Shown here: positions 18,204-53,155 of the stretch, piece after piece
Position numbering within the stretch: position 1 is the stretch's first letter
Layout of the letters: every line of letters begins with the position of its first letter
The notes under the pieces: model-generated
The model's database searches: none
Seen by the model: only the letters and a program-made list of their open reading frames with translations
Told to the model about the DNA's origin: nothing
Program-made: the position numbers and the translations under genes
Assembly: GCF_021531055.1 (NCBI RefSeq)
Contig: NZ_JADYTL010000003.1
Coordinates: forward strand, 62,001-126,000
Origin: Collinsella tanakaei
GTDB lineage: Bacteria; Actinomycetota; Coriobacteriia; Coriobacteriales; Coriobacteriaceae
Direction of reading: 5' to 3'
DNA: 64,000 nt

Positions 18204-18673
18204 CCAGAATCCTCAAATACACGGTGCCGGGCGTATCCTATTCCCTACCGCACCGCTTCTGAGCTGCGGTTTCACCACCTGATGCCATGGATGTCCTGTG
18301 AAAACACTATGGAAGGACGCCGGTGTCCTTGAATCGGGCCGACACCCTCGTCGGGGGATCCAGCGGGTGGCTCGCGCCGTTGGCTTCGCTCCGCACCCGG
18401 AACCGGGTTCGATCCCTGTCGGCCTCTTAACGAAGCGGGCCCGGCACCGCGACGGCGCCGGGCCCGAGACCCTCCTATGGAGCCAGCGACAGGAATCCGC
18501 GCGGCTTGACGCCGCGCGTGCGCTGCGGGCGGCTGGCGCCGCCCTTGCGTGCTGTGCGGCCAACGGCTCGCGCCGTTGGCTTCGCTCCGCACCCGGAACC
18601 GGGTTCGATCCCTGTCGGCCTCTTAACGAACCGGGCCCGGCACCGCGACGGCGCCGGGCCCGAGACCCTCCTA
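18204..18673. other. Non-coding region with duplicated tRNA-associated element
   Basis: No gene is supported; the open frames that cross this region encode tRNA-arm-like repeats. It contains two copies of a 129-bp unit (18369-18497 and 18565-18693) and, between them, hairpins joined by linkers that recur near tRNA-Val at 52906-53045. Confidence 0.65.
18369..18497. repeat. 129-bp direct repeat, copy 1 (partial tRNA-Thr 3' end included)
   Basis: Identical to 18565-18693 except for one base (GAAGCG versus GAACCG). Its last ~24 bp are the 3' end of tRNA-Thr(TGT), and its middle carries GGGTTCGATCCCTGTC, an inverted copy of the same tRNA's T-arm with one change, and a CGGGCCCGGC / GCCGGGCCCG hairpin. 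Confidence 0.85.
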
Positions 18674-18693
18674 TGGAGCCAGCGACAGGAATC
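18565..18693. repeat. 129-bp direct repeat, copy 2 (runs into the intact tRNA-Thr)
   Basis: Offset from copy 1 by 196 bp. The end of this copy is the real 3' end of tRNA-Thr(TGT). The 67 bp between copies hold CGCGCGGC/GCCGCGCG and GCGGC/GCCGC hairpins. Confidence 0.85.
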
Positions 18694-18748
18694 GAACCCG
18701 CAACCCAGTGATTACAAATCACTTGCTCTACCGTTGAGCCACGCTGGC
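18674..18748 (-). tRNA. tRNA-Thr (TGT)
   Basis: GCCAGCG / CGCTGGC acceptor stem, anticodon loop TTTGTAA, T-arm GGTTCGATTCC, encoded CCA. Its 3' end is repeated 196 bp downstream (minus direction). Confidence 0.96.
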
Positions 18749-52789: not shown

Positions 52790-52851
52790 GACAAGATGGT
52801 GCCAGGTACATTCTTGTCGCCGTGACAAGATGGGCCCGGGTTCATTCTTGT
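52790..52851. repeat. Family A repeats, two copies
   Basis: 52790-52818 and 52823-52851, same orientation. Each has ATTCTTGTC instead of AAACTTGTC at its right arm, so this is a sub-type. Confidence 0.8.
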
Positions 52852-52884
52852 CAAAACGGTACCGCCGCGACGCCGTTACCTAAG

Positions 52885-52905
52885 CAATGGTGGGCGATGA
52901 GGGAT
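52885..52905. repeat. 21-bp copy of the tRNA-Val 3' end
   Basis: CAATGGTGGGCGATGAGGGA plus T matches 53077-53097 exactly. It contains the CCA and acceptor/T-stem 3' part of tRNA-Val and lies 192 bp downstream of it in the minus direction, as in an attachment-site pair. Confidence 0.85.
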
Positions 52906-53045
52906 ATCACCGCCGCGCTGCGCGCGCCGGTGACGCTGCGGATGCCTTCGGCATCCTTGCGTGCTCCGCTGGAAAATGCTCAACGCATTTTCTCAGCTTC
53001 GCGCCCCAGGGGGTTCGAATCCCTCTGCACTGGGCGCTGACAAGA
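52906..53045. repeat. tRNA-associated composite element (tRNA-Val copy)
   Basis: Three hairpins (TCACCG/CGGTGA, GATGCC/GGCATC, AAAATGC/GCATTTT) are joined by CGCTGCGG, CCTTGCGTGCT and CTTCGC, and followed by GGGGTTCGAATCCCTC, an exact inverted copy of the tRNA-Val T-arm. The same linkers, with other stem sequences, occur at 18498-18620. Confidence 0.6.
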
Positions 53046-53079
53046 AACGGCACCGTTGCCGGTGCCGTAAATCGTTCAA

Positions 53080-53155
53080 TGGTGGGCGATGAGGGATTCG
53101 AACCCCCAGCCTTGTGCGTGTAAAGCACCTGCGCTAACCGTTGCGCCAATCGCCC
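53080..53155 (-). tRNA. tRNA-Val (TAC)
   Basis: GGGCGAT / ATCGCCC acceptor stem, anticodon loop TTTACAC, T-arm GGTTCGAATCC, encoded CCA. Its 3' end is duplicated 192 bp away. Confidence 0.97.

Follow-up and report, generated by a model that had tools for sequence, protein, structure and literature searches.

What is the array of hairpins that lies beyond the 3′ ends of tRNA-Thr(TGT) and tRNA-Val(TAC) in a 64,000-nucleotide stretch of the Collinsella tanakaei genome (hereafter, the window)? The initial annotation left three answers standing: a structured RNA, a mobile hairpin with tRNA 3′ ends as its target, or a scar of integrase activity. Direct reading of the loci, together with repeat and tRNA scans, confirmed that the linkers CGCTGCGG, CCTTGCGTGCT and CTTCGC follow in identical order at both, and that the stems between them are unlike yet paired: GGGCGGC/GCCGCCC at Thr versus GGATGCC/GGCATCC at Val in the second hairpin (hp2), and CCAACGGC/GCCGTTGG versus AAAATGC/GCATTTT in the third (hp3). 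The minus strand encodes both tRNAs. Along the plus strand each locus consists of a duplicate of the tRNA 3′ end in antisense orientation, three hairpins (hp1, hp2 and hp3), a fourth (hp4) formed by an inverted T-arm of the adjoining tRNA, the terminator and the true tRNA 3′ end (Table 1). The element is thereby flanked by direct repeats made of the tRNA 3′ end and terminator, and the reported spacing of the tRNA-end repeats was reproduced at 196 bp (Thr) and 192 bp (Val).

The inverted T-arm copies of each gene's own tRNA were likewise verified (Thr, 18 nt, 94%, 17/18; Val, 17 nt, 100%, 17/17). Because both genes are encoded on the minus strand, these copies present the T-arm in sense orientation when the plus strand is read, and they lie 65 nt from the true T-arm at both loci. 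The Thr locus comprises a full unit (18498-18693) and a truncated second unit (18369-18497) beside it, which accounts for the 129-nt length of the repeat there. Plus-strand folding of both loci greatly exceeded that of dinucleotide shuffles (z of -5.9 and -3.7; 0/200 shuffles as good), and a covariance model trained on 11 copies, with both window copies left out, recovered them from the whole genome at E values of 7e-12 and 5e-7. The likeness of the two loci is far beyond chance. Just distal to the Val element, at 52790-52852, a palindrome, GACAAGATGG...CATTCTTGTC, is present in two copies, and a related pair occupies the equivalent place in genome G021; it looks like a REP-like repeat unrelated to the element.

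Table 1. Components of the tRNA-Thr and tRNA-Val loci in the window (coordinates count from the first nucleotide of the window).
Feature	Position	Strand	Evidence
Target gene tRNA-Thr(TGT)	18674..18748	-	ARAGORN; Rfam tRNA 67 bits
Proximal copy of duplicated tRNA-Thr 3′ end, to the T-loop GGANTC boundary	18673..18693	-	Repeat scan, 99% with 18477-18497
tRNA-Thr terminator hairpin, within the duplicated stretch	18632..18662	-	Inverted repeat; duplicated along with tRNA end
Thr hp4, inverted T-arm copy (core 18600-18617)	18592..18618	+	17/18 to own T-arm; family-wide match
Thr hp3, variable stem CCAACGGC/GCCGTTGG, fixed flanks	18555..18591	+	Fold; covariation
Thr hp2, CGC-TGC-[GGGCGGC/GCCGCCC]-TT-GCG	18521..18549	+	Fold; covariation
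Thr hp1, starting inside T-loop remnant	18498..18519	+	Fold; boundary analysis
Distal copy of tRNA-Thr 3′ end	18477..18497	-	Repeat scan
Thr truncated second unit: hp3 end, inverted T-arm (18404-18421), terminator	18369..18476	+	129-nt repeat; weak model match, E 2
Target gene tRNA-Val(TAC)	53080..53155	-	ARAGORN
Proximal copy of duplicated tRNA-Val 3′ end	53077..53097	-	Repeat scan, 100% with 52885-52905
tRNA-Val terminator	53047..53068	-	
Val hp4, inverted T-arm core 53009-53025 in a longer hairpin	53004..53036	+	17/17 to own tRNA; fold
Val hp3, stem AAAATGC/GCATTTT	52967..53003	+	Fold; covariation
Val hp2, stem GGATGCC/GGCATCC	52934..52961	+	Fold; covariation
Val hp1	52908..52932	+	Fold; boundary analysis
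Distal copy of tRNA-Val 3′ end	52885..52905	-	Repeat scan; filled/empty orthologous sites

The window loci are members of a large, apparently undescribed family of palindromic DNA elements of about 120 bp. An 11-base linker search revealed the matching arrangement at many tRNAs within the genus; the suspected association of the linkers with tRNA genes was recovered in related genomes, the named records being from Collinsella and close relatives, including Enorma massiliensis. The covariance model returned 13 good matches in the C. tanakaei genome and 1-16 in relatives, and copies were detected in 40 out of 43 Collinsella-group genomes. Across the class, 49 of 396 genomes carry them, 48 belonging to the same taxonomic family and one (G096) to another. 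The distribution is patchy even inside a single genus, with copies in just one of the g22 genomes listed, and G031, G015 and G065 are without the element.

Of 148 copies, 140 were found within 400 bp of a tRNA encoded on the other strand, the great majority of them 40-60 nt away or one tandem unit further, and the targets span 22 anticodon types. Three copies adjoin the 3′ end of tmRNA (L142 in the C. tanakaei genome, L256 and L252), and the other five comprise two next to disrupted tRNA genes, one that is the third unit of a tandem array, one cut off by a contig end and one orphan; the last, L250 (G029:C3:217211-217296), is the sole clear case with no tRNA close by. In a 1.1-Mb stretch of G087, all four copies are at tRNAs, and the 11-mer T-arm core GGTTCGANTCC occurs there at 11 sites, nine of them within tRNAs, so that recognition of this 11-mer would account for targeting of both tRNA and tmRNA genes. 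In L052 and L096, from Collinsella aerofaciens, the proximal repeat of the array breaks off in the acceptor stem of tRNA-Glu (GGTGCCCC, followed by unrelated DNA), reflecting either a rearrangement or another mobile element.

A search of Rfam yielded tRNAs and chance matches only, with no family covering the element, and in phage, plasmid and viral collections the only matches were due to tRNA similarity, apart from a single Collinsella record and the edge of one prophage. No description emerged from a literature search whose reach took in a minority of subscription journals; an earlier description elsewhere is possible. Fremin and Bhatt 2021 (PMC8040213) present Collinsella motifs, and none of those in the main text fits the element.

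Comparison of orthologous sites bears on movement. At tRNA-Val(TAC), a single-copy and fully conserved gene, 12 species carry the element, and in five the site is empty. For 92 of 146 copies, the closest relative of the hairpin part resides at a different tRNA; for the remaining 54, it is found at the same tRNA in another species, and much of the distribution is therefore inherited. Within the C. tanakaei genome, hairpin identity reaches 96.9% between the Gly-CCC and Arg-CCT copies and 94.8% between Arg-CCT and Ala-TGC. Such near-identical hairpins at different tRNAs are each followed by the end and terminator of their own tRNA, since the direct repeat is local DNA. Judged from these filled and empty sites and from near-identical hairpins at different tRNAs, the element is mobile, and the proposal of a mobile hairpin targeting tRNA 3′ ends is well supported by the 148 copies, the 22 tRNA types plus tmRNA and the local duplication.

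Insertion duplicates about 65-80 bp of local DNA, the direct repeats measuring 67-105 nt with a variable far end. At the single-copy loci L152, L232 and L294, the proximal and distal repeats (77-79 nt) are 100% identical, terminator included. In almost every copy the left edge falls in the T-loop, directly behind GGAN or GGANTCG, and orientation and offset to the target are constant. As the tRNA 3′ end and terminator are both duplicated, insertion spares the gene and leaves its T-loop available to additional units; such arrays, two or three units long, were indeed observed, some mixing clearly different element types (Ser-TGA in the C. tanakaei genome; Val in G016).

The sequence of hp4 follows the target. 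Position 59 of its T-arm agrees with the adjoining tRNA in 97.6% of distinct cases versus 37% after shuffling (z 15), and positions 57, 59 and 60 jointly match in 96.8% versus 66.7%. Unusual T-loops are copied as well, namely those of Leu-CAG (GTTCAAGTCC), Leu-CAA (GAGTTCGAGTCTCGCC) and tmRNA (GGAGTTCGATTCTCCGCGC). Between the nearly identical Lys-TTT and Thr-CGT copies of G013, the left half of hp4 is common, and from position 60 onwards each equals its own tRNA. The distal repeat extends as far as hp4, and in many loci (L232, L294, L261, L213, L307, L278 and L279) its last base coincides with the limit of the T-arm match; the inverted half of the T-arm therefore arrived with the insertion. 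The distal repeat of single-copy loci lacks hp4, which makes slow gene conversion improbable as the sole cause of the match. To our knowledge, a target-matched inverted T-arm is familiar from no other element.

The stems covary, as had been anticipated for a conserved fold: in 22 of the 25 pairs both partners vary, with 335 double-change cells versus 96 after shuffling (0/500), in an alignment that was fitted to the model and hence tilts the count toward structure. Together with the strong fold and the resemblance of hp4 to an acceptor/T-arm minihelix, this is what would be expected of a structured regulatory RNA whose gene adjoins a tRNA gene and whose 3′ end mimics a T-arm. The type of change in the stems argues otherwise. 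Among 2153 plus-strand pair cells of hp2 and hp3, 2101 are Watson-Crick, 11 are G-T (0.5%) and 41 are A-C, whereas controls from the same loci gave G-T:A-C counts of 48:4 in tRNA stems and 121:22 in tRNA terminators, and wobble reaches 6-10% in the adjoining tRNA stems and terminators (10% in terminators). The Fisher p values, 5e-14 against tRNA stems and 2e-16 against terminators, are a rough guide, the related sequences being non-independent. Read on the minus strand, the mismatches lean toward wobble (41 G-U vs 11 A-C), as an RNA would have it; half of these mismatches come from one pair, and the wobble frequency, 1.9%, is far below that of the controls. Strand bias is absent from hp1 (31:26), no promoter match was found at the element, Rfam offers no match, a terminator stands between the element and tRNA transcription, and an RNA would leave the target duplication unexplained.

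Covariation with almost no plus-strand wobble thus makes a plus-strand RNA unlikely, and we consider a structured regulatory RNA very improbable. Our conclusion is that the hairpins persist as palindromes at the DNA level, maintained by an enzyme needing them, by template switching, or by both; template switching makes inverted repeats uniform in other organisms (PMC8604942). One hp3 pair (alignment A3, columns 68/99) reads A-C or C-A in 21 of the 106 copies, equivalent to G-T on the other strand and found in both orders, and may mark the folding strand.

No mobilizing enzyme was identified among the integrase, RAYT and reverse transcriptase candidates checked. The C. tanakaei genome contains six phage-integrase family genes above the cut-off, of which one, compared with NCBIfam, fell far under the integron-integrase cut-off and the other five were classed by eye, with no integron integrase recognized. 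The tyrosine recombinase P0001 (280 aa; L318 1450-2292, G000:C10:166706-167545) is a stand-alone, XerA-like gene beside ssrA, divergent from it and near the tmRNA-associated element, and homologues are sparse across the order. It was rejected as the mobilizer, being present in 19 of 197 genomes, one of them element-free, and not located near tRNAs elsewhere. Beside another copy, at a prophage edge, L356 5602-7281 (IMGVR_UViG_2921084881_000004) encodes a large-serine-recombinase-like protein; this prophage is apparently inserted in the 3′ end of tRNA-Lys. According to the Islander paper (PMC4383910), tRNA genes are known as targets of tyrosine integrases only.

RAYT (Y1_Tnp) genes were also considered. 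REP/BIME sequences with their RAYTs (PMC2817692) share with the element imperfect hairpins, conserved unpaired bases and clustering. Unlike them, the element is located only at tRNAs, and RAYTs, common in the genus, are absent from G032, G025 and G005, which carry 11, 5 and 3 elements, respectively. Of the four RAYT-like genes in the C. tanakaei genome, those examined carry other palindromes (GGGAAAATAGGGAC-type) rather than element hairpins, and the elements nearest to RAYT genes are 2-5 kb off, at tRNAs. Two of these Y1 transposase genes map to L370 (G000:C8:232500-237500) and L367 (G000:C9:166500-171500); the former is flanked by TGGGAAAATAGGGAC/GTCCCTATTTTCCCA palindromes, which are probably its cognate REPs. 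Reverse transcriptase and target-primed reverse transcription were discarded with the absence of RVT_1 from the C. tanakaei genome. The TRE retrotransposons of Dictyostelium (PMC5391098) similarly spare the host by targeting tRNA genes; unlike the element, they are autonomous retroelements and insert outside the gene. No autonomous copy or linked transposase was found in a search covering part of the transposase families, and the element is therefore filed in no transposase family.

Could the whole unit of about 190 bp (tRNA 3′ end, terminator and hp4 to hp1) instead be a cassette, moved by a tyrosine recombinase in trans with crossover in the T-loop, in an integron-like manner and with the folded hairpins as attachment site? 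Integron cassettes form tandem units with a folded attC site between inverted cores and insert next to a fixed anchor, and the element is alike in these respects: its units stack in tandem, and hp4 and the far junction form inverted repeats comparable to R'' and R' of attC. The core is nevertheless GTTCGAN, deviating from RYYYAAC...GTTRRRY, and what the 'cassette' holds is the end of the anchor gene itself. Genomic islands in tRNA genes show a duplicated 3′ end, an intact gene, a T-loop subsite and tandem arrays, as the element does; the T-loop is a known crossover subsite of tyrosine integrases, whose integration reconstitutes the tRNA gene and leaves behind a fragment of its 3′ end (PMC4383910). 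Here, too, a tDNA fragment lies at the far end in the same orientation; the units, however, are gene-free and contain no tyrosine integrase. The element further differs from such islands in its size of 120-190 bp and in hairpins that move between tRNA types, and a foreign cassette would not bring a species-specific terminator, duplicated here at 100% identity, nor would near-identical hairpins each carry their own tRNA end. A tyrosine-integrase route, conceivable in view of that subsite, predicts neither the duplicated terminator nor the spread between tRNA types. As the local terminator is duplicated, unlike in an ordinary island, and no co-distributed integrase was detected, a scar of integrase activity was not demonstrated, and we regard a recombinase-driven cassette as doubtful.

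The nearest class is that of small non-autonomous palindromic elements. In common with MITEs and small palindromic bacterial repeats (class in PMC2229807), the copies are short, gene-free, non-coding, palindromic and dispersed, have direct repeats from target-site duplication and filled and empty orthologous sites, and are presumably mobilized in trans. Unlike MITEs, they use one defined spot in tRNA and tmRNA genes, possess a direct repeat of 65-80 bp that is longer than usual, show no recognized terminal inverted repeat of a known transposase and carry an inverted copy of the target. They stand apart by their T-loop target, by the great length of the duplication and by the inverted T-arm that they capture. 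On balance, we hypothesize, with somewhat better than even confidence, that the element is a non-autonomous, MITE-like unit of about 120 bp composed of DNA palindromes (hp1-hp2-hp3 plus the inverted T-arm), targeted to the T-loop and mobilized in trans by a putative enzyme.

We infer that this enzyme, supplied in trans, would recognize the 11-bp T-arm core GGTTCGANTCC, in these genomes almost confined to tRNAs, and would nick the two strands 65-80 bp apart, one nick producing the observed T-loop break at GGAN-TC(G). A strand of the element would be joined at the T-loop nick, its 3′ end (..GGTTCGA) would be extended by a few bases on the target T-loop to give the inverted, target-matched half of hp4, and gap filling would produce the direct repeat. 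The hairpins would afterwards be kept perfect by template switching from one inverted arm to the other. A nick spacing of 65-80 bp would be unusual for a transposase and speaks against this explanation, as do the inherited share of the distribution, the lack of a mobilizing enzyme among the candidates checked and the fact that neither an excision product nor a recent transposition was observed directly.

The main rival dispenses with an enzyme. During replication, a nascent strand ending in the conserved T-loop would jump to the element of another tRNA via the shared bases GGANTCGA, copy its hairpins, return through TTCGA to the T-loop of its own tRNA, now in the inverted sense, and then resume upstream of the terminator, duplicating it. 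Every junction indeed lies at a short sequence common to all tRNAs, and the scheme accounts for the inverted target patch, the variable far limit of the duplicated stretch (67-105 nt), the missing enzyme and the perfect palindromes, the last with the precedent in other organisms mentioned above (PMC8604942). It is harder to reconcile with an architecture and orientation that recur unchanged across dozens of species and 22 types of tRNA; the conserved unpaired bases (TGC/TT, TTGCGTGCT and CTC) suggest protein binding, and three switches per event are much to ask. We therefore consider enzyme-free template switching unlikely, if less so than a recombinase-driven cassette. Beyond a trans-mobilized MITE-like element, we tentatively raise the possibility, which we would not yet call probable, that the element represents a novel class of mobile DNA that transposes by a chemistry of its own. 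Its hairpins would recognize the T-arm, insertion would duplicate the tRNA end and terminator, and at each move the element would copy into itself, in inverted form, a short stretch of the new target. If so, hairpin arrays would grow beside tRNA genes as repeats and spacers do beside a CRISPR leader.

These results have consequences for the detection of mobile elements. The wobble test is a cheap discriminator between DNA palindromes and structured RNAs, which are often confused in RNA motif discovery. Islander discards candidates that are shorter than 2 kb or lack an integrase (PMC4383910), and this class of element would therefore be missed; island finders requiring an integrase and more than 2 kb are blind to such elements, and similar ones may exist elsewhere. 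The natural insertion series described here provides material for working out the transposition mechanism. In Collinsella, a common human gut genus in which the elements are apparently unannotated, they reside beside up to about a dozen tRNA genes and, in some species, tmRNA, and they illustrate how an element of 120 bp can parasitize essential genes without damage.
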